Virus record (IMG/VR): IMGVR_UViG_3300030333_003967 | Location: 1-41,294 of that record | Direction: 5' to 3' (one strand) | Length of the DNA: 41,294 nt | DNA from: a virus | In this document: piece by piece, positions 14,477 through 37,260 of the stretch | How positions within the stretch are numbered: position 1 is the first letter of the stretch | Layout of the letters: each line of letters starts with the position of its first letter | The notes under the pieces: generated by a model | What the model was told of the DNA's origin: nothing | Database searches by the model: none | Seen by the model: the letters and a program-made list of their open reading frames with translations, nothing else | Made by a program: the position numbers and the translations under genes

Positions 14477-16963
14477 ATGGAGGATTTACCTGAAGGTCTA
14501 TTTAGAAACGCGATAGACCTAAACCGTTTCAGTAATGGAACTTCTAAAAAGCTAATTAATTCTTATAACCGCATCATTCTGAAAGCGATTAAGGAGTTGA
14601 AGCGAATCGAGGAAATGCCAAGTGCAAAACGTCCAAAGGTTCGAGCTGCAAGATTGCGGGCGTTATTGGCTCAAACAAAAGCAAGTCTCAACACTTGGTC
14701 AGTTAAGAGCGTCAATGAATTAGCGAAGGATTTAGAAGGGATTGCACAGATTCAGTCAGATTTTGCAACGCAACAAATATCAAAAGCTTTGTCGCCTAGC
14801 GCAAGACAACTTTTATCTGTTAATTCGGTAGAGGTCACGCCAAGTTTTGCAAAGGCGGTTGTCAATGCCGACCCGTTGGATATAAGCACAAACGTTTTAA
14901 GTCAAAGTCTGGATGATGCGGTTAGAGGCGCAACGGGCAATTTCAAACTAACGGCAACTCAAGGCTCTCAAATCAGGATGCCAGGAGGGGAGAGCATCAC
15001 CAAATTATTTAGAGGGTTAGCGGAAAAGAATGCAGAATTATTTGCAACGAATGTACAAGATGGTCTTTTAACAGGTGAAACAACACAACAAATAGCAAGG
15101 CGATTAGTTGGTAATTTGGAGTTTGGTCAAAAAGCGATGAGCGCAAGACAACTCGCAATGGCGGGTGGGGAATCGACGAAGATGGCAAATCATCAGATTA
15201 TGGCAATCACTCGGACAAGCATTAATCAAGTTGCGAACAAGGCAAGTCAGCAAGTTTATAGAGCAAATCCTGATCTAACTTCAAAATATAGATACGTTGC
15301 AACGCTTGACTCAAGGACTTCTCCAATTTGTAGAGAGCTAGATGGGAAGGAATTTATTTATGGAAAAGGTCCAGAACCAGCGCAGCATTTCAATTGCAGA
15401 TCAACAACGGTTGCTGTTATTGATTACGACAAGATTCAAAAGAAACATCCCAACGTAAAACCACCAAGCAAACCATTAGGGAAACGGGCAGCGGCGGGCG
15501 GATCAGTACCGAGCAATATGACTTATGGAAAATGGTTACAAAAACAACCTGCAAGCGTCAAAGCAAAAACACTAGGAAAAGAAAAGGCTAAATATTTTGA
15601 CAGGCTTTCAAAAAAATATGGCCCAGATGAAGCGATGAAAAGATTCGTCAGGGATGACGGTTCTGAAGTCTCGTTAAAAACTTTTAAGGCACGTTATGGG
15701 AAGCCAGAAGACATCAAGATAAAACCACCCGCCAAGCCAAAGCCAAAGCCAAAATTAAAACCAACAAAGAAAGAGGCTGCAATATTAGCGGCTGAGAAGA
15801 AGAAGAAGGCAGAGGTTCAGTCGTTGAAAAAACAGATTGATTCATTAGCTAAAGATTCACCATCGAAGGAAGTAACGGCACTTAAAAAAACAGTCGATCA
15901 AATTGCTGGTCCAGAGTTGGCAACAGCTTCGCAATTGAGCGCAAAGACACAAGACTATTTGATAAATTTCCAGCAATTAGACTTAAAGAATCCAAAGCAT
16001 GTTCAATGGTTCAAGACTCAAGTCGCTTTTAACTCTGACATCATTCCAAAGGATCAACTAAAAACGATCACGCCAGCACAATTATTCCGCAGGGTACAAG
16101 ACAAAGAAGTTGGATTATTACAGAAAAAATATGATAAGGCTTTCAAAAAGTCATTACTACCTAAAAAAGAAGCCGTTAAACGTGCACCTTTAAAGAAATG
16201 GGATGATAAAAGTTATCTTGACAAGAATCTTGCGGGGTCTTCTAACGTTAGTGCTGTAAGAAAACAGAGCGCAGCGGGTCGAAAGACGACAGGCGATTTA
16301 TTTGAGAAACCCAACGAAAAGAACTTAGGACTTACAAAAGCACAATTAAAAGACACAGAAAATATTATCGGCGAATGGTGTGGCGATAGTTATGTTGAGT
16401 TGCGAGGATCTCAACTTCAGCAAGCGCAAGCAGTTGGAGCGCAGTTAAACCCTCAACAGATTAAGCATTTAAAGAGATACAAGGACATCCGAGCGCGGAG
16501 CGCATCTGCCCAGAACGCATGGGCAAGGCAAGCAGACAAGATGGAAGACTTTATTTCAAAGTCACCAAAATGGAAGGGAGAACCAGAAGGGTTATTGAAA
16601 GGGCAAATAGAAAAGAACGGGACAATCTTTAGAGGTATGGCGTTGAATGATCCAAAGGTTGTCGAGTCGATTATTGAGTCTTATAAGAACGGCGATGCTG
16701 GATTAACGATGGAAAGCTGGACAATGAGCAGAACGAAGGCTGGTAATTTTGCTTTAGGAGAGATTGGACATGGTAATCATCAAGTAATTTTGAAGCAAGT
16801 TAATAAATACGGTACGTCTATCGAAAATTACAACGGTCAAGGGGAAAGGGAGATCCTTCAACCTAGAGGCGTGAGGTATAGGGTTCTAAAAAGCACTACA
16901 GATAAATGGACAGAAAAAGGCAAGGCTCATTCTATGACTGAGATATTCTTGGAAGCCTATTAA
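14477..16963 (+). CDS. head morphogenesis protein (SPP1 gp7/Mu F-like) fused to ADP-ribosyltransferase
   Basis: An 828-aa protein. The N-terminal part holds a Mu gpF/SPP1 gp7-like minor head domain (about 245-315: ITRTSINQVANKASQQVYRA, ATLDSRTSPICRELDG, HFNCRSTTV). A lysine/proline-rich linker with possible coiled coil (about 415-480) leads to a C-terminal domain (about 660-828) with R-S-E ADP-ribosyltransferase signatures: TIFRGM (R719), ESWTMS (S747-S751) and GEREIL (E790-x-E792). Such minor head proteins can be ejected with the DNA, so the enzyme may modify a host protein at infection. Head call firm; enzyme call good but from motifs only. Confidence 0.87.
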   Translation: MEDLPEGLFRNAIDLNRFSNGTSKKLINSYNRIILKAIKELKRIEEMPSAKRPKVRAARLRALLAQTKASLNTWSVKSVNELAKDLEGIAQIQSDFATQQISKALSPSARQLLSVNSVEVTPSFAKAVVNADPLDISTNVLSQSLDDAVRGATGNFKLTATQGSQIRMPGGESITKLFRGLAEKNAELFATNVQDGLLTGETTQQIARRLVGNLEFGQKAMSARQLAMAGGESTKMANHQIMAITRTSINQVANKASQQVYRANPDLTSKYRYVATLDSRTSPICRELDGKEFIYGKGPEPAQHFNCRSTTVAVIDYDKIQKKHPNVKPPSKPLGKRAAAGGSVPSNMTYGKWLQKQPASVKAKTLGKEKAKYFDRLSKKYGPDEAMKRFVRDDGSEVSLKTFKARYGKPEDIKIKPPAKPKPKPKLKPTKKEAAILAAEKKKKAEVQSLKKQIDSLAKDSPSKEVTALKKTVDQIAGPELATASQLSAKTQDYLINFQQLDLKNPKHVQWFKTQVAFNSDIIPKDQLKTITPAQLFRRVQDKEVGLLQKKYDKAFKKSLLPKKEAVKRAPLKKWDDKSYLDKNLAGSSNVSAVRKQSAAGRKTTGDLFEKPNEKNLGLTKAQLKDTENIIGEWCGDSYVELRGSQLQQAQAVGAQLNPQQIKHLKRYKDIRARSASAQNAWARQADKMEDFISKSPKWKGEPEGLLKGQIEKNGTIFRGMALNDPKVVESIIESYKNGDAGLTMESWTMSRTKAGNFALGEIGHGNHQVILKQVNKYGTSIENYNGQGEREILQPRGVRYRVLKSTTDKWTEKGKAHSMTEIFLEAY

Positions 16964-25251: not shown

Positions 25252-25599
25252 ATGGCAACATTTCCAACAAGTCCCTCACCTACTTATGGAGCATCAAAAA
25301 GTAGCGCTCCAAGCACAAGGGTCGTGCAATTCGGTGACGGTTATGAGCAAAGAATCGTCAGCGGTTCGATTAATAACGATCCAAAACAATGGTCGTTAAA
25401 TTGGAACAATATTTCTGAAGCTGATGCTGATACTTTAGAAGCATTCTTAGAAGCAAGAAAAGGAATTGAAAATTTTAATTGGACTCCACCCGATACATCG
25501 ACTTCTTATAAATGGGTTTGTGGTAAGTGGACTAAATCAATCCCATATAACGGTCGAGCAAATCTTTCCGCCACCTTCAGACAAGTATTTGAACCCTAA
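25252..25599 (+). CDS. minor tail protein M-like
   Basis: A 115-aa protein matching the lambda gpM/PF05939 pattern: TRVVQFGDGYEQRI, WSLNWNNISEADADTLEAFL, FNWTPPDTS, YKWVCGKWT and LSATFRQVFEP. It starts one base after the tape measure stop. It is the first subunit of the tip complex, contacting the tape measure protein. The gene begins the M-L-K-I-J order. Confidence 0.9.
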   Translation: MATFPTSPSPTYGASKSSAPSTRVVQFGDGYEQRIVSGSINNDPKQWSLNWNNISEADADTLEAFLEARKGIENFNWTPPDTSTSYKWVCGKWTKSIPYNGRANLSATFRQVFEP

Positions 25600-26492
25600 T
25601 GGCATTTACAGCATGGGCCGCTGGGGCATCCATTAGCCTTGGTGACGTAAGAAGAGCAACAACCGCACAGCCAAGCGGCCTTGTTTTTAAATGTACTACG
25701 GCAGGAACTACGGCGGGTTCTGAACCAACTTGGCCGACTGATATCGGTTCAACAATTACAGATAACAGCGTTGTTTGGACGGCGGTTAGTGCTGTCTATG
25801 AAGAGTTGGCAGTCTTAGAGCCTAATACGATTATTGAGTTATTTGAGTTACATTTAGATGCAACATTGCATGGGTCTTCTGATATTTACCGTTGGCATTC
25901 GGGGTCTAATGCTGATGTAACAGGAAACATTGTTTTTAATTCTGAGACTTACTACAGGCAGCCAATCATTGCGTCGGGGTTTGAATATGCAAATACAGGG
26001 ACTTTGCCGCGACCAACTTTAACTGTCTCTAACCTTGATTCGACAATTACAACTGTTCTTTTATTGGTTAATGCTGTTACCCCAGGAAACGACTTAGGGG
26101 GTGCTTTAGTGAAGCGCATACGCACACTTTTAAAATTTCTTGATGGACAATCTGCGGCTGATCCTTACGCCACTTTTCCTGAAGAGCAATGGTATATCGA
26201 TCGCAAGTCAAAGGAAGATAGAAACGAGGTAGCGTTTGAATTAGCTTCTAAATTTGATGTTCCTGGCCAAATGCTTCCAAAGCGTCAGCTCATCGCCAAT
26301 ATTTGCCAATGGGAATATAGGTCAAGCGAATGTAGTTACTCAGGATCTAACTATTTCGATGTAAATGACAACTCTGTGGGTTCATTATCACAAGATAAAT
26401 GTGGAAAAAGGTTAAGCAGTTGCAAGAAAAGATTCGGAGAAACGGGTGAATTACCTTTCGGATCTTTCCCTAGCGTAGGTATGACGAAATGA
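25599..26492 (+). CDS. minor tail protein L-like, iron-sulfur binding
   Basis: A 297-aa tip protein. Residues about 1-85 form an extra N-terminal module with the W..G....G pattern of small carbohydrate-binding domains (MAFTAWAAGASISLGDV, GSEPTWPTD), absent from lambda L. The C-terminal part is L-like with four cysteines at C236, C245, C268 and C275 (spacing 9, 23, 7). I recall lambda L uses cysteines at the same spacing for a [4Fe-4S] cluster. It starts in a TAATG overlap and ends in ATGA with K. Confidence 0.87.
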   Translation: MAFTAWAAGASISLGDVRRATTAQPSGLVFKCTTAGTTAGSEPTWPTDIGSTITDNSVVWTAVSAVYEELAVLEPNTIIELFELHLDATLHGSSDIYRWHSGSNADVTGNIVFNSETYYRQPIIASGFEYANTGTLPRPTLTVSNLDSTITTVLLLVNAVTPGNDLGGALVKRIRTLLKFLDGQSAADPYATFPEEQWYIDRKSKEDRNEVAFELASKFDVPGQMLPKRQLIANICQWEYRSSECSYSGSNYFDVNDNSVGSLSQDKCGKRLSSCKKRFGETGELPFGSFPSVGMTK

Positions 26493-27208
26493 TTCTCAGA
26501 GAAGACATTAAAACAGAGGCTCTTGCACATGCAAAGGAAGAGTTCCCAAAGGAATGCGTCGGCCTTGTTGCCATTATTAAAGGTAAGCAGCGTTATTTTA
26601 AATGCACCAACATTGCAGAAACACCCGACGAGCATTTTGTGTTAGACGGAGAAGAATATGCAGCGGTTGAAGAGAAAGGCGAGATTGTTGCTTGTATTCA
26701 TTCTCATCCAAAAACAAACCATTCTCCTAGTGCAGCCGATCGGGTTGCTTGTGAGAAATCGGGCTTATATTGGTTTGTTGTAAATCCTCAAACAGAATTA
26801 TGGGGAGAGTGCAAGCCTTCAGGTTTTGAATTGGCTTTTGTTGGTCGTGAATTTGTGCATGGAATAGTTGACTGCTATACGTTGATTAGAGACTTTTATA
26901 AAAAAGAGTTTGGCATCCTTTTAAATGATTACAACCGCCGCGATGAATGGTGGCATAAAGGAGAAAATATGTATTTAGATAATTTCAGTAAAGAAGGATT
27001 CAAAGAAATTGATGATAGTGACCTTCAATACGGGGATTTATTTATAATGCAATTAGAGTCACCTGTCCCTAATCACGGTGGAATTTACATAGGCGACAAT
27101 CTCGTTTTGCATCATGTCCAAGGCCGCCTCTCAAGTCGTGATGTTTATAAATTTGGCGGCTATTATCACAAAATGACGGCGAGGTTTTTAAGGCATGAAA
27201 GTCGTTAA
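26489..27208 (+). CDS. tail tip K-like: JAMM plus NlpC/P60 hydrolase
   Basis: A 239-aa two-domain protein in the lambda K arrangement. The N-terminal MPN/JAMM domain has E22 in KECVG and HSHP...SAAD (H71, H73, S81, D84), a complete zinc site. The C-terminal NlpC/P60 domain has DCYT (C129), NHGGIYIG (H196) and HHV (H208/H209), a complete Cys-His peptidase set. It may cleave peptidoglycan during entry, or process a tail protein. Starts ATGA, ends overlapping I by 14 nt. Confidence 0.92.
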   Translation: MILREDIKTEALAHAKEEFPKECVGLVAIIKGKQRYFKCTNIAETPDEHFVLDGEEYAAVEEKGEIVACIHSHPKTNHSPSAADRVACEKSGLYWFVVNPQTELWGECKPSGFELAFVGREFVHGIVDCYTLIRDFYKKEFGILLNDYNRRDEWWHKGENMYLDNFSKEGFKEIDDSDLQYGDLFIMQLESPVPNHGGIYIGDNLVLHHVQGRLSSRDVYKFGGYYHKMTARFLRHESR

Positions 27209-27869
27209 GGTTTATGGAGCTTTAAAAAAGCGATTAGGCGGCCAAGGGCGTTTTGAGTTTGTAGCGAATACGCCAGCGGAAGCAATGCGGGCTTTATGTG
27301 CAAATTTCCCTGGTCTTGATAAATGGCTAATCGATAGTGAACAAAATGGGATTTATTACAAGGTGGCAGTAGGTAAGGAGAAAATCACAGAGGATAAACT
27401 AGAAGACTTACAACTGCCTTGGAGCGAAAAAGCAGAATTTAGAATTACGCCTGTCTTAACAGGTGCGGGGCGCGGTGGTTTTTGGGGGGTTGTAACAGGT
27501 GCGGCCTTAATTGGAGCATCGTTCTTATTCCCTGGTGCAGGAGCTTTTGGAACAACCAGCTTCTTTGGTTCTAGTGCCGTTGTGGCGGGTACAGCGGGAG
27601 CGACAGCAATGGGCGTAATGGGAACAGCAATAGGAACAGGTCTTTCTTTAATGGGCGCATCGATGGTGCTTGGTGGAGTTTCTCAAATGATTTCGCCAAG
27701 GCAACCGTCAGGGCTGGGGCGTAGCAAAGAAGCGGCGAAATTACAGAACTATTCTTTTTCAGGTATCACCAACACGGCACAACAAGGGATGGCAGTACCC
27801 ATTGTTTATGGGCGTTGTTTCGTTGGTAGTGCTGTAATAAGTTCAGGACTAGATGTGGATCAACTCTAA
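27195..27869 (+). CDS. tail assembly protein I-like
   Basis: A 224-aa protein: an N-terminal ubiquitin-like beta-grasp part (VKVYGALKKRLGGQGRFEFV, then AMRALCANFPGLDKWL), a long glycine/alanine-rich hydrophobic centre (two or three possible membrane segments in about 95-165) and a C-terminal region TAQQGMAVPIVYGRCFVGSA typical of the I family. It lies between K and J in lambda order. The hydrophobic region suggests it is a chaperone or an ejected membrane component. Confidence 0.88.
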   Translation: MKVVKVYGALKKRLGGQGRFEFVANTPAEAMRALCANFPGLDKWLIDSEQNGIYYKVAVGKEKITEDKLEDLQLPWSEKAEFRITPVLTGAGRGGFWGVVTGAALIGASFLFPGAGAFGTTSFFGSSAVVAGTAGATAMGVMGTAIGTGLSLMGASMVLGGVSQMISPRQPSGLGRSKEAAKLQNYSFSGITNTAQQGMAVPIVYGRCFVGSAVISSGLDVDQL

Positions 27870-30800
27870 ATGAGACAAATACAAGGAGCTGGCGGCGGTG
27901 GTTGTTTTGCAGGGCATACCCTTGTAAAAACTGGCGATGTAGAAAAAAGAATTGATGAAATAAAAGAAGGTGATTACGTTTGGAGTTTTGACGACCAAGG
28001 GCGAATCCATGAAAGCAAGGTTTTAAAAGTCCATAAACACGAAGACGAGAAAATAGTTGAATATAAGTTATGGGGAGGGATAAAGCTTTGCGCGACCCCA
28101 AATCATTGGGTATTAAATCAATACAATGCCTTCGTTGAGATTGGCAGCCTTGGTTTTGATGATTGCTTAGTTAATACAGACGATCATTTGCTGCCAATAG
28201 TCGGAAAGAAAGAATTAGAGAATGGAACGGTTTATAACTTAACGGTCGAAGATCATCACACCTTTTTTGCTGGTGGTATTCGTGTCCATAATGCGGGCTT
28301 AGGAATTGCCGGATCAGGTGGCGGCGGTGGCGGTAAAGGCGGAGGAGGAGGGAGCCAACACGTTCCCACAGAGGCAGATGACTCGCTCCAATCTCGCCAA
28401 ATGGCAACAGTATTGGATCTGTTGGCTGAAGGAGAAATCCAAGGATTAGACGATGGTAACAAGAGTGTTTATCTCGGCGGAACTCCTGTGCAAAGCCCAG
28501 GAGGTACTAACAATTTTGAAGGGTTCACGATCATAACAAGAAATGGAACCCAAGGACAAAGTTACATCTCATCCCTAGCAGGCGCAGAAAGTGAGAAGCA
28601 AGTCAACGTTACGGTGATTCAGTCAACCCCTGTTATTCGTCAAATTACAGACACAGACGTTGATCGGGTTCGCGTCACTATAAAGATCCCTGCTCTGCAG
28701 GTCGTTGAAGATGACGGCGATATTGTTGGCCATAGCGTTCAATATGAGCTTCAAGCTCAATACAACGGCGGCGGTTATAGCACGTTTGCCGTTGACACTG
28801 TTACAGGTAAGTCTTCGGCTAGTTATCAGCGTGATTATATGGTTAATTTAGCGGGGGCCTTCCCTGTTGATATAAAAGTCATAAGACTAAGCCCAGACGA
28901 TGCGAGCGCAAGGAAGCAAAGTAAAACAATTTGGTCTAGCTATACAGAGATCATTGATGAAAAATTACGCTATCCAAATAGTGCTTTAATTTATCTCCGC
29001 TTTGATGCTCGCAATTTTGGGAGCATCCCCGCCAGAAAATACCTAGTACGCGGGCTAAAAATCCAGCATCCGCATAACGCTTCTATTGATACGTCCACTT
29101 ATTTGGGACGGGTTACGTATTCGGGAACTTTCAACGGAACACTAGGCGCAGCTCAATGGTCTTCTGATCCTGCTTGGTGCTTATGGGATTTACTTACTAA
29201 CACCCGCTATGGAGCCTCTATTCCTGCCGCATCTCTTGATCGATACGATTTCTATACCATTAGTCAATATTGCAACGAATTAGTATCAGACGGAAAAGGA
29301 GGGCAAGAGCCAAGGTTTGCTTTAAATCTATTAATCAATTCACGCGATGAAGTTTATAACGTCATTCAAGAATTAACTTCACTATTTAGAGGAATTAGTT
29401 ATTACGCTTCAGGGTCGCTTGTATTACAGCAAGATAAACCTTCAGACTCTCAATATTTAATAGGACCGAGCAATGTGGTCGGCGGTGAATTTATTTATAG
29501 CGGCACATCGCAAAAGGCAAGGCATACAACTTGTACTGTTGCCTACCAGCGTTATGACTCACTAGGCGAAGTCCAATATGAATATGTAGAGGATGCGGAC
29601 GCAGTTGCAAAATTCGGCGTTATCAATGCAGACTTCCGAGCCGTTGGGTGCTATTCGCAAGGGCAAGCGCATCGCGCAGGTAAATGGCTTTTGCTTTCCG
29701 AAAATAATCTCACTCAGACAGTAAGTTTTGGAATTTCAATAGAAAGCGGGATCACATTACGCCCTGGAATGGTGATAGATATTTCAGACCCAGTAAGAGC
29801 AGGGACACGCCGATCGGGCAGATGCTCCACGGGTTCAACTACAACTCAAGTTGTGATCGATAGTGCGACAGATTTATCTGTAGACATGGGGAATAGCCCA
29901 ACAATTTCTGTAATCCTTCCTACAGGCTTAATTGAGACAAAAACAATTACTGGAATTAGTGGCACGACTGTCTCTATAAGCGATAGCTTTTCAGTTGCGC
30001 CAGCTCAAGCAGCGGTTTGGTTGATCCAAACGACAGACGTTCAATCACAGCAATATCGCGTTCTAAATGTTGTTGAGTCTGGAGATGGTGGTTATGCCGT
30101 TACAGCTCTTGAATACAACAGTTCAATCTATGAAGCGATTGAATCAGACATAAATCTGACTCAACGAGATATTACTGATCTATCAGCCGAGCCTGATCCT
30201 GTTAGTTCTATCTCCTCAACAGAATTTTTATACCAAGAGGGTCAAACAGTTCACTCAGCCGTTGATGTTAGTTGGATCAGCCCAACCACAAACGTCAGCG
30301 AATTTCGAGTCCAATACAAGATTGATAATGATAACTGGCAGGTATTAACAACAACATCGCCATCCGTAACAATTAGACAAACAAGGCCAGGGCTTTTACA
30401 GTTACAAGTTCAGGCTTATAACCATTTAGGAAAAGGGAGTCAAATATCAACATCCTCAATTGAATTAATAGGTAAAACAGCCCGTCCGGGTGATCCTACT
30501 AACCTAACTTTTGAAGCAATCAGCGCAAACTCTGGCCGTTTAAGATGGGATAAATCAACCGATTTAGATGTTCTTGTCGGTGGCTCAGTATCGATTAAGC
30601 ATTCAAGTAAAACCGATGGATCTGGAACGTGGGCGAATAGCGTTTCCCTGATTCCTGCAAAGTCAGGTATACAAACAGAGGCGATTGTCCCATTAGTTGA
30701 AGGTGAAGTATTAGTTAAATTCGTTGATGATGGAGGGAGACAAAGTACAAATGCTGCAAGTGTCATTGTTGATCTTCCCGACACAATGAACCAGCTGGGG

Positions 30801-31604
30801 GTCTTTACACAAAGAGAAGATGAAGACAGCCCACCATTTCAAGGAACAGCCACAAATTGCCATTACAGCGAAACAGAGGATGCGTTAGTTCTGGATGGTC
30901 AAAATCTCGATGAGATGCCAGATTTCGATGCGATCGTCAACTTTGATGTTTTAGGTGATATTGATGCGACGGGTACTTATACATTCAACGAAAAGATAGA
31001 TTTAGGTGCGACTTATTCTGTTGATTTAAAACGTCATTTTGCAACGGTTGGTTATTTGCCTGCGGATCTTTTAGATTCACGCGCTTCAACAGTTGACACG
31101 TTTGCCGATTGGGATGGGGAAGTCCAAAATGTAGACGCGAAATTGTACATGAGAAGCACATCAGGAGACCCCGCAAGTGGTGGTTCTAGTTGGTCATCGT
31201 GGCAAGAATTTGTAAATGGAACATTCCGCAATCGGGGTTTTGAGTTTAAAACTACTCTTACAAGTTCTGACACTGATGAATCAATCAAGGTTACAGAGTT
31301 AGGAGTTAGCGCAACACTGCAAAGAAGGTCAGAGCAGAGCGACGGAGCAATCGCAAGTGGTACGGCAAGCGGAGGTAAAACAGTCTCATTTTCTAAATCT
31401 TTCTTCACGGGAACTGCTGCTTTAGGCGGTGCTAATTCAAAACTCCCTTCAATTGGAATTGTTGCTCAAAATATGCAGGCGAATGACATTGTGAACGTGA
31501 CTGCTGTAACCGCAACAAACTTCACCGTTAAATTCCAAAATGGTGGAGCTGTTGTTGATCGCAATTTCACATGGTCAGCCGTTGGATATGGCCTTGGAAG
31601 CTGA
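27870..31604 (+). CDS. tail tip attachment protein J-like with N-terminal Hint domain
   Basis: A 1244-aa host-specificity protein. After 11 residues a Hint (intein-type) domain covers residues 12-141; a glycine-rich stretch follows, then the usual J start (DDSLQSRQMATVLDLLAEGE, IQGLDDGNKSVYLGGTPVQ). The middle is the tip hub fold, followed by FN3-like domains (EFRVQYKIDNDNW) and a C-terminal region likely to contact the receptor. The ATG directly abuts the I stop. Without the Hint the J length is normal. Excision would leave a normal-looking J. Confidence 0.9.
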   Translation: MRQIQGAGGGGCFAGHTLVKTGDVEKRIDEIKEGDYVWSFDDQGRIHESKVLKVHKHEDEKIVEYKLWGGIKLCATPNHWVLNQYNAFVEIGSLGFDDCLVNTDDHLLPIVGKKELENGTVYNLTVEDHHTFFAGGIRVHNAGLGIAGSGGGGGGKGGGGGSQHVPTEADDSLQSRQMATVLDLLAEGEIQGLDDGNKSVYLGGTPVQSPGGTNNFEGFTIITRNGTQGQSYISSLAGAESEKQVNVTVIQSTPVIRQITDTDVDRVRVTIKIPALQVVEDDGDIVGHSVQYELQAQYNGGGYSTFAVDTVTGKSSASYQRDYMVNLAGAFPVDIKVIRLSPDDASARKQSKTIWSSYTEIIDEKLRYPNSALIYLRFDARNFGSIPARKYLVRGLKIQHPHNASIDTSTYLGRVTYSGTFNGTLGAAQWSSDPAWCLWDLLTNTRYGASIPAASLDRYDFYTISQYCNELVSDGKGGQEPRFALNLLINSRDEVYNVIQELTSLFRGISYYASGSLVLQQDKPSDSQYLIGPSNVVGGEFIYSGTSQKARHTTCTVAYQRYDSLGEVQYEYVEDADAVAKFGVINADFRAVGCYSQGQAHRAGKWLLLSENNLTQTVSFGISIESGITLRPGMVIDISDPVRAGTRRSGRCSTGSTTTQVVIDSATDLSVDMGNSPTISVILPTGLIETKTITGISGTTVSISDSFSVAPAQAAVWLIQTTDVQSQQYRVLNVVESGDGGYAVTALEYNSSIYEAIESDINLTQRDITDLSAEPDPVSSISSTEFLYQEGQTVHSAVDVSWISPTTNVSEFRVQYKIDNDNWQVLTTTSPSVTIRQTRPGLLQLQVQAYNHLGKGSQISTSSIELIGKTARPGDPTNLTFEAISANSGRLRWDKSTDLDVLVGGSVSIKHSSKTDGSGTWANSVSLIPAKSGIQTEAIVPLVEGEVLVKFVDDGGRQSTNAASVIVDLPDTMNQLGVFTQREDEDSPPFQGTATNCHYSETEDALVLDGQNLDEMPDFDAIVNFDVLGDIDATGTYTFNEKIDLGATYSVDLKRHFATVGYLPADLLDSRASTVDTFADWDGEVQNVDAKLYMRSTSGDPASGGSSWSSWQEFVNGTFRNRGFEFKTTLTSSDTDESIKVTELGVSATLQRRSEQSDGAIASGTASGGKTVSFSKSFFTGTAALGGANSKLPSIGIVAQNMQANDIVNVTAVTATNFTVKFQNGGAVVDRNFTWSAVGYGLGS
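27903..28292 (+). other. Hint / bacterial-intein-like domain inserted in tail protein J
   Basis: A 130-residue module from C12 to N141 of J. Block A: CFAGHTLVKTGDVEKRIDEI, then GDYVWS. Block B: CATPNHWVL (T..H). Block F/G: VYNLTVEDHHTFFAGG, then IRVHN. The N-terminal Cys, the T-x-x-H, and the terminal His-Asn of inteins are all present, with no homing endonuclease. The residue after Asn is Ala, not Cys/Ser/Thr, so ordinary splicing is unlikely and BIL-type cleavage or atypical splicing is expected. Confidence 0.87.
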
Positions 31605-34487: not shown

Positions 34488-34918
34488 TGTCAACACTTAA
34501 CGCCCAAAACGTAAAGCACGAGACTAGCGGAATTAATACGCTGGTCTTTGATAATGGTGGAACGTCAGGAGGTAATGGTCGAGTAACGACGAAAGGAACT
34601 ATTGGAGAAATTTCTGCTCTTGGGGATAAAACAGGTGACGTAACGATTGATATGAAGACGGCTAATAATTTCAGCATGACATTAACAGGCAATATTGTTT
34701 TAAAGAATCCAACAACAGTTGCAGCGGGTCAGAGTGGCGTGATCTATATCACTCAAGATGGTACTGGGTCGAGAACTTGGAGCGCAGAATCATATTGGGA
34801 TTTTCCTGGTGGCACTTTACCGACTTTAAGTACAGGAGCAGCAGCGGTTGATGCTGTTGTTTGGCACGCACGAACAGCTTCTAAAATTACAGCTCAGGTT
34901 GTCCTAGATTTACAATAA
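34487..34918 (+). CDS. small tail fibre/structural protein
   Basis: A 143-aa protein starting MSTLNAQNVKHETSGINTLV. The pattern of N-terminal 'LNAQNVKH..S....N.v.d..G' and the C-terminal VIYITQDGTGSRTWSAESYW, then FPGGTLPTLSTGAAAVDAVV, is one I recognise from marine phage fibre or baseplate-associated proteins. It is TAATG-linked on both sides. The beta-rich content fits a fibre tip module. Confidence 0.75.
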   Translation: MSTLNAQNVKHETSGINTLVFDNGGTSGGNGRVTTKGTIGEISALGDKTGDVTIDMKTANNFSMTLTGNIVLKNPTTVAAGQSGVIYITQDGTGSRTWSAESYWDFPGGTLPTLSTGAAAVDAVVWHARTASKITAQVVLDLQ

Positions 34919-37260
34919 TGTCTTCTCTTGGTTCGCCTAATCCTCTGTTATTTGGTGCAGCTAAGGATTATGAAATAGAACGTTCTCTAAGGTTTAATCC
35001 GTCAGATGATACCTACCTAAGCAGAACTTTCGGCACTAATAGTAGTAACACAACGAAAACTTTTTCTTGCTGGATAAAAAGAAGCTCAAGATTAGATGAA
35101 TATACGACTATATGTGCAACAACACAGAGCGGGAATATAGAGAGTCGGTTGCAATTTGCAAGTAGTGGGGCTTTAAAATTTACAGATAGAGACTCAGGGG
35201 ATGGGAGTACGGATGCGAATTTCTATACTGATGCTCTATATAGAGACTGTTCAGCTTGGTATCACGTCGTTTTAATCATTGATACAACAAACGGCACAGC
35301 AGGAGACAGGATACGTATTTATGTGAATGGATCGAGAGTTACAGCTTTATCAAGTGTAACTAATCCATCATCGAGCTATGCAGTGTCATTTATGCGCTCT
35401 AGTGCTGTTAATTTTATAGGTGTTGGAGCAGCTACAGGTAGTGATGATTTCAGTGGTTATCTTTCTGAGATCCATTTCTTAGATGGCACTATTAAAGAGC
35501 CTAGTAATTTTGGTGAAACAGATTCAGATACAGGGGCTTGGGTTCCCATAAAATACACAGGAGGGGGATATGGTAATAATGGGTTTTATTTAAGCCTCTC
35601 AGACAATTCAGGCACTACAGCAACAACATTAGGAAAGGATTCTTCTGGCAACGGTAATAACTGGACTCCTAATAATTTTTCAGTTTCAGGAGCAGCAACC
35701 GATTCATTTGAAGATACACCTACAAATAATTTTTGTACGATGAATCCCCTTGCTGGCAGGAAGACTGTAGAAGTAACACCTGGCAATGGCAATTTATACA
35801 CAGCTTTAAGCGATGCTGGTACTTATCAAGTCGTTTCTGCAACTCAAGCAATTACTTCAGGAAAATGGTATTGGGAAGTGACAGTTACTGCTGTAGGAAG
35901 CCAATGTAATCTAGGTGTTACTAGTGCAACATGGGATCAAAACGACGTCCCTGATGCGGCTTGGAAAAATTACCAGAATAATGGCAATAAAAATACCGCA
36001 ACTGGTGGTACAAATACAGCCACATCAAGCTGGGGAGCAACATATACGACTGGTGATGTTATAGGGGTTGCCGTTGATATGTCAGCAGGATCAATAACCT
36101 TTTATAAGAACGGATCAAGTCAAGGTGCTGCCTATACAGATCTAGCTTCTGCAATGCCTGATGATGGGTGGATACCTTTTGCTTTTGGGTATAACGGTTG
36201 TAACTTGACATGGAATTTTGGACAAAGAGCTTTTGCACATACGGCTCCGACTGGGCATTTGAAATTATGTACAGCAAACTTACCTGAACCAACAATTAAA
36301 AAAGGAACTGATTATTTCAATACTGTTCTTTATACAGGTGATGATGCTGCCACTCATGCAATAACAGGTGTAGGGTTTCAACCTGATCTACTTTGGCTCA
36401 AAAGGAGAAGTCACACCCAAAACCATTTTCTAGTAGATAGTGTTAGGGGTGCAACTACATATATGCAGGCAAATACTACTGACGAAGATTCTACAAATGC
36501 CACTACTGTCGTAAAAAGTTTAGACAGTGATGGATTTACTTTAGGTAGTTATGATGGTACGAATGGAGACGGAAAAACTTTTGCATCGTGGAACTGGAAA
36601 GAATCAGCAACAGCAGGTTTTGATATTGTTAGTTATACAGGAAATGCCTCTGGCCCAAGAACTATTTCCCATAATTTAGGTGTAAAACCTGACCTTATTA
36701 TTTGTAAGAATAGAGATCAGGTTACCAATTGGATGACGTATCATAAGGACATTGGTGCTGAGAAATTTTTATATATAAATACAGGTGCAGCTCAAATGGA
36801 CGATGCGGCTGCTTGGAATGATACAGAACCAACTTCTAGTGTCTTTACTGTTAATGCAGATCAGCAAAACAATGGAGATGGTGACGATATAATTGCTTAT
36901 GTGTTTGCAAGTGTTGAAGGCTTTTCAAAAATAGGCACTTGGAAAGGAACAGCCAGTACTAACGGACCTTTTGTATATTGCGGTTTCAGGCCCGCCTTCC
37001 TTATCCAGAAAAGAGCTTCAGACACGGGGCCGTGGAATATGTTTGATGATAAAAGAAATACCTATAACCCTACTAACAAAACTGTTTACGCAGATAGTGA
37101 TGCGGCTGAATACACAAATACAGGCTCTGACCCTCAAATTGATTTCTTATCGAATGGGTTTAAGGTTAGATCTTCTTATTCATCTTTTAACGGGACTAAC
37201 GACGATCTCGTCTACATCGCTTTTGCTAAAACACCTTTCAAATACGCCAACGCCCACTAA
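34918..37260 (+). CDS. large fibre: LamG plus SPRY plus DUF7483-like repeats
   Basis: A 780-aa adhesin. Residues about 20-200 are a LamG/concanavalin-like domain (SCWIKRSSRLDEYTTI, AWYHVVLIIDTTNG, RIRIYVNGSRVT). About 305-435 is a SPRY-like domain (GKWYWEVTVTAVGSQCNLGV, VIGVAVDMSAGSITFYKNGS). The C-terminal 320 residues hold two copies of a module with FQPDLLWLKRRS and GVKPDLIICKNRD, then FRPAFLIQKRAS, characteristic of DUF7483. This composite binds glycans or proteins on the host surface. Confidence 0.85.
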   Translation: MSSLGSPNPLLFGAAKDYEIERSLRFNPSDDTYLSRTFGTNSSNTTKTFSCWIKRSSRLDEYTTICATTQSGNIESRLQFASSGALKFTDRDSGDGSTDANFYTDALYRDCSAWYHVVLIIDTTNGTAGDRIRIYVNGSRVTALSSVTNPSSSYAVSFMRSSAVNFIGVGAATGSDDFSGYLSEIHFLDGTIKEPSNFGETDSDTGAWVPIKYTGGGYGNNGFYLSLSDNSGTTATTLGKDSSGNGNNWTPNNFSVSGAATDSFEDTPTNNFCTMNPLAGRKTVEVTPGNGNLYTALSDAGTYQVVSATQAITSGKWYWEVTVTAVGSQCNLGVTSATWDQNDVPDAAWKNYQNNGNKNTATGGTNTATSSWGATYTTGDVIGVAVDMSAGSITFYKNGSSQGAAYTDLASAMPDDGWIPFAFGYNGCNLTWNFGQRAFAHTAPTGHLKLCTANLPEPTIKKGTDYFNTVLYTGDDAATHAITGVGFQPDLLWLKRRSHTQNHFLVDSVRGATTYMQANTTDEDSTNATTVVKSLDSDGFTLGSYDGTNGDGKTFASWNWKESATAGFDIVSYTGNASGPRTISHNLGVKPDLIICKNRDQVTNWMTYHKDIGAEKFLYINTGAAQMDDAAAWNDTEPTSSVFTVNADQQNNGDGDDIIAYVFASVEGFSKIGTWKGTASTNGPFVYCGFRPAFLIQKRASDTGPWNMFDDKRNTYNPTNKTVYADSDAAEYTNTGSDPQIDFLSNGFKVRSSYSSFNGTNDDLVYIAFAKTPFKYANAH

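Follow-up and report, generated by a model that had tools for sequence, protein, structure and literature searches.

The tail-tip protein J of an uncultured lambda-like phage opens with a Hint domain that resembles the bacterial intein-like (BIL) domains of type A, and the same domain, real and intact, is widespread in the J proteins of uncultured lambda-like phages. It is likely that this Hint is active and cuts itself out of the J N-terminus, by cleavage or by splicing without a nucleophile, and that the unit to which it belongs is exchanged between phages without an endonuclease of its own. The window, i.e., the whole stretch of DNA that was analyzed (41,294 nucleotides), is an IMG/VR virus contig (IMGVR_UViG_3300030333_003967).

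An intact Hint domain in a lambda-type J protein

The open reading frame of J (27870–31604, plus strand; 1244 amino acids) encodes the Hint and the J body in a single open frame. In a profile search, residues 154–1224 match the family phrog_31 ("central tail fiber J") at 4.9e-228, and a Pfam scan identifies PF24801 at 8.4e-38; the lambda_TipJ model spans residues 157–864 with a score under the strict cut-off of that model. Solved J structures also match, among them that of phage lambda (8IYK) at 1e-99, and profile matches recover the lambda gene order L-K-I-J upstream. Both the J body and the gene order identify the product as a lambda-type tail-tip protein J. Residue 2 of lambda gpJ aligns with residue ~157 of the window J, which means that lambda gpJ has neither the Hint nor the leader. 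The features of the region are as follows.

25599..26492, plus strand: minor tail protein L (PF05100, 5.7e-49)
26489..27208, plus strand: tail assembly protein K, with JAB and NlpC/P60 domains (Pfam and PHROG matches)
27195..27869, plus strand: tail assembly protein I (phrog_32, 6.9e-53); its stop codon adjoins the start of J
27870..31604, plus strand: gene of the tail-tip (central fibre) protein J (phrog_31, PF24801, PF13550, solved J structures)
27870..27902, plus strand: 11-residue leader MRQIQGAGGGG with the conserved J N-terminal motif, which also opens Hint-less J proteins
27903..28292, plus strand: Hint domain resembling BIL type A, 130 residues in exactly 130 codons (profiles, homologues, predicted fold)
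27903..27905, plus strand: Cys1 (J C12), the predicted nucleophile of the thioester step, unchanged in all 86 distinct Hints
28095..28106, plus strand: block B, TPNH (J T76–H79), invariant
28164..28166, plus strand: second invariant cysteine (Hint position 88, J C99), in 86 of 86 Hints
28287..28292, plus strand: terminal His-Asn (J H140–N141), predicted site of Asn cyclization, invariant
28293..28304, plus strand: AGLG at positions +1 to +4, with Ala at +1 in 150 of 151 distinct sequences and a dN/dS of ~0.04
28305..28352, plus strand: second copy of the motif and poly-Gly linker (IAGSGGGGGGKGGGGG), from a comparison of the flanks

Residues 12–141 of J run from CFAGH through TPNH and VEDHH to RVHN and are followed by Ala 142. 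An earlier note, made from the sequence of the window, had placed a 130-residue Hint at 27903–28292, behind a leader of 11 residues and ending with His-Asn before Ala; these coordinates are exact to the base, and the profile matches bear out the assignment. Pfam models exceed their curated cut-offs for Intein_splicing (PF14890, 1.2e-11), PT-HINT (PF07591, 5.6e-10), and Hint (PF01079, 1.3e-7), as do the NCBIfam models of the N-terminal (TIGR01445) and C-terminal (TIGR01443) intein splicing regions in a piece of 157 amino acids. An AlphaFold2 model based on 25 homologues has block-mean pLDDT values of 91–97 over the Hint, whereas the Gly-rich stretches on either side are modeled with low confidence. 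Its best Foldseek matches are BIL2 of Tetrahymena (6e-12) and the gp41-1 intein, and VIA-align gives Z scores of 20–22 with the DnaB and RecA mini-inteins and of 20.7 with a BIL of C. thermocellum. By its profile matches and predicted fold, the insert is a member of the Hint superfamily with an intein/BIL fold.

The complete catalytic set (Cys1, TxxH, His-Asn) and the lack of a nucleophile at +1 agree with the BIL type A kind that the earlier note had suggested, and a sequence ranking places BIL2 and the C. thermocellum BIL 2LWY (7e-7 and 2e-6) ahead of true inteins (3e-4). Besides its fold, the J Hint shares Cys1, TxxH, the terminal His-Asn, a non-nucleophilic +1 residue, the lack of an endonuclease, and a low-complexity insertion site with the type A BILs, to which 2LWY belongs (Amitai 2003 and Dassa 2004, as cited in PMC4031507). 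It differs from them in that its host is a phage tail-tip protein with one conserved insertion site, in the near-invariant Ala-Gly at +1/+2, in the host motif on both flanks, and in the evidence for its exchange between phages. The class 1 mini-inteins (Ssp DnaB, Mtu RecA, gp41-1) have the same fold, but the J Hint lacks the Cys, Ser, or Thr at +1, which rules out a class 1 intein; the Asp of their F block is replaced by Asn, and presence and absence of the J Hint include extra flanking residues (AGLG and the motif). A PT-HINT pretoxin is ruled out because the Hint is followed by the J body rather than by a toxin domain.

Constraint on the Hint and its flanks

The Hint is under purifying selection. 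All 86 distinct homologues have a length of 130 residues, and Cys1, T65, H68, H119, H129, and N130 (Hint numbering) are invariant; a common length together with the fixation of all catalytic positions in 86 Hints is far beyond chance. Pairwise counts reveal no amino-acid change in the six catalytic codons despite near-saturated synonymous change (pS 0.77), and a dN/dS of ~0.10 for the Hint and of ~0.04 for AGLG, values that are descriptive because the pairs are not independent. A decayed Hint is ruled out by the catalytic sites, which lack any amino-acid change. Changes at single positions could yet silence the domain. An inactive Hint that is simply retained as a structural domain at the N-terminus of J in the virion would not need its catalytic positions fixed across deep divergence; even if the persistence of Hint-bearing J genes indicates that J tolerates large N-terminal additions, this explanation is highly improbable.

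The flanks are similarly uniform. The residue at −1 is Gly in 151 of 152 distinct loci, and among the 151 readable C-flanks, 150 have Ala and one has Gly at +1, whereas +2 is always Gly. The consensus of the C-flank is AG[LI]G, and its synonymous codons vary freely. Unlike a homing intein, the Hint contains no homing endonuclease domain, and all 130 of its residues are accounted for by the Hint fold; Pfam detects no homing-endonuclease family in 22 other proteins of the window (a subset of its open reading frames). The second cysteine (Hint Cys 88; window 28164–28166), which is invariant in the 86 distinct Hints, is perhaps involved in redox control.

Exchange of the Hint between phages

J proteins with ~99% identity occur both with and without the Hint. 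In a tree of 98 J sequences, well-supported branches force at least five changes of state between presence and absence, and the whole tree holds nine. In a close pair of loci, L118 with and L111 without the Hint, DNA identity is 99.1% over the 300 nt upstream and 96.5% over the 600 nt downstream. The existence of such close relatives indicates that the Hint is dispensable for the function of J.

In pairwise identity, K, I, and J correlate closely with one another (0.88–0.90), as do the two halves of J (0.905), whereas the identity of the Hint correlates with that of K, I, or J at just 0.38–0.47. A J clade of 14 members, chosen from the J tree for its mixed Hints, does not hold together in the Hint data (rejected by an AU test, p 3e-9); a second J clade is not rejected in the Hint tree (p 0.44). 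Between the window and locus L002, DNA identity is 92–96% in the Hint bins from 27957 to 28256, 75–87% in the bins at the Hint edges, and mostly 58–80% in K, I, and J, with one bin at 43%. The weak correlation, the rejected clade, and the pattern of L002 argue for a history of the Hint that is separate from that of its neighbors, and these sequence comparisons indicate that its transfer between phages was not coupled to K, I, or J. The route of exchange is probably recombination through the flanking Gly codons.

Presence and absence among near-identical J proteins, exchange between phages, and the independence of J from the Hint would also be expected of a tolerated passenger, a former mini-intein of J whose +1 nucleophile was lost and that brings no benefit to the phage and is under selection merely not to block J. 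Such a passenger would employ the same chemistry as the self-removing Hint favored here and differ from it in purpose; because cleavage at the extreme N-terminus of J is cheap, it could persist and spread. By contrast, the retention of AGLG and the motif with the Hint through deep divergence, and a spread without an endonuclease domain as its driver, speak against a mere passenger, and its probability falls somewhat short of an even chance.

The J N-terminal motif and a probable mobile unit

Comparison with J proteins that lack the insert, which do exist, shows that they open with the same N-terminal motif, M..-hydrophobic-x-G-[AS]-GGGG. The motif opens also the J proteins of Halomonas, Acinetobacter, and single-cell marine phages, which are ~42–43% identical. 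Hint-bearing J proteins contain one copy ahead of Cys1 and another behind AGLG (143 of 152 in each case). A fusion of an unrelated gene is ruled out by the single open frame and the presence of the J motif at both sides of the Hint. The spacing between the motif and Cys1 ranges from 2 to 9 Gly, which means that the motif is more than a catalytic need of the Hint. In one locus (L071:4566–5390), two complete Hints with intact catalytic residues open a single J in tandem, and IHGA is found at each of the three flanks. Together with the doubled motif, this tandem points to a mobile unit that appears to consist of the Hint, AGLG, and the motif. At the second motif residue, leader and right flank covary too weakly to serve as evidence (19 of 46; shuffles average 13.8, and 35 of 2000 reach this value, with relatedness left in the data).

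Proposed processing of J

Type A BILs form an N-terminal thioester, cut their C-side by Asn cyclization, and sometimes ligate via the freed amine (PMC4031507; PMC7664689). The J Hint possesses all residues required for this chemistry. We infer the chemistry and its product as follows. Cys1 would take the carbonyl of Gly(−1), forming a thioester to the leader, and the terminal Asn would cyclize and cut before Ala(+1), leaving a J body with the N-terminus Ala-Gly-Leu-Gly. The freed amine might then take the leader off the thioester, which would amount to splicing with no nucleophilic side chain involved. Alternatively, water might do so, in which case the leader would be lost; for the J Hint, cleavage and splicing seem about equally likely. 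The product of C-cleavage would start with AGLG..IxG[AS]GGGG, much like natural J proteins that lack the Hint, and the splicing product would hold two motifs; because either product would retain the J N-terminal motif, J would resemble its natural Hint-less form. The position of the Hint is suited to part J from a short leader, as the earlier note had proposed.

If the leader were always discarded, its conserved motif at a variable distance from Cys1 would need another reason. One candidate is that the thioester donates the leader to an amine of a second tail protein, resulting in an isopeptide-linked leader, by analogy with Tetrahymena BIL2, the nearest solved structure, which makes an isopeptide bond (PMC8616854). 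BIL2 of the BUBL protein (6Y75, 6TMM) is the best match of the J Hint in sequence and in Foldseek and also has a Gly before Cys1, but the J Hint lacks the ubiquitin-like neighbor domains, and of the BIL2 zinc ligands H48 and H125 (PMC8616854), only the counterpart of H48 is His, the other being Asn. Since Hint-less relatives do without any such step, a transfer of this kind is very improbable.

In phage lambda, the N-terminal region of gpJ completes the hub with the C-terminus of gpL, and gpI lies against gpJ (PMC10721106), which makes a removal of the Hint ahead of assembly plausible; by this analogy, it is possible that removal times the assembly of the tail tip. The Hint might then act as a switch that, perhaps triggered by redox conditions (via the second invariant cysteine) or by K or I, lets J dock with L and I. 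The lambda contacts, the second cysteine, and the fixed site in J are compatible with such a switch; however, relatives whose J is nearly identical but lacks the Hint need none, L118 and L111 share nearly the same 300 nt upstream, and the Hint does not follow the history of K or I, which makes such a switch unlikely.

A more specific version of the self-removing Hint can be put forward only tentatively. It would be an endonuclease-free, self-excising module that is specialized for the poly-Gly N-terminus of tail-tip proteins, brings its own spare J motif, so that J works after cleavage alone, and spreads by recombination; it may also link the leader to a tail-tip partner or time the docking of that partner.

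BIL domains have been described chiefly from bacterial proteins, and their purpose is, to our knowledge, not settled. The J Hints represent a large, well-defined family in a single host protein whose structure and role are known, and natural pairs of J with and without the Hint, in which little else differs, make it directly testable whether an autoprocessing Hint is of use to its host protein or a passenger. They also represent a Hint lineage that passes between phages although it encodes no endonuclease, and they point to a protein-processing step at the tail tip that is missed by standard annotation. For a BIL of type A, the host protein, the layout, and the mobility are unusual.

Distribution of the J Hint

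Scans of IMG/VR yielded 94 relatives with the Hint alone as query and 547 with an alignment, of which the best 80 each were used. Among the fetched loci, some of which overlap, the J body is present in 204 of 209 Hint-bearing open reading frames, which rules out chance or a misread frame; of the other five, four are short and have the same leader or flanks, and one is a different protein from a Flavobacterium MAG (L167). In the latter (L167:4321–6432), a related Hint (44% identity) is located at the end of a 704-residue open reading frame in a context unlike that of J; Gly-Gly and a short basic tail come after it. A contig of an Oxalobacter genome (L168) shows the same layout as the window J, with 47% identity and Gly at +1; of 399 genomes of its order, one has the domain. 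A pattern-limited scan of GTDB detected only three prophage loci.

Searches of 50,697 deposited phage records detected no J Hint belonging to this family. In INPHARED, all matches of the Hint queries were distant Hints, located in proteins other than J or in unnamed open reading frames, and a DNA search gave no match. The earlier note knew of no Hint in phage J proteins, and a search of the open-licence literature likewise found no paper that describes a Hint or an intein in J; within these papers, a Hint in the N-terminus of J is apparently undescribed so far.

Other genes of the window

In L, an N-terminal extension, the first ~60 residues of which (25599–25790) match a head decoration PHROG (7e-6), precedes the PF05100 match, which starts at residue 93. 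The head morphogenesis protein (14477–16963; 828 residues) is far longer than its Mu F-like domain, which is restricted to residues 190–311, and its C-terminal half is without a Pfam match. Downstream of J, a 780-residue protein (34918–37260) combines a SPRY domain with DUF7483 (4e-100) and is possibly an accessory tail or host-recognition protein.
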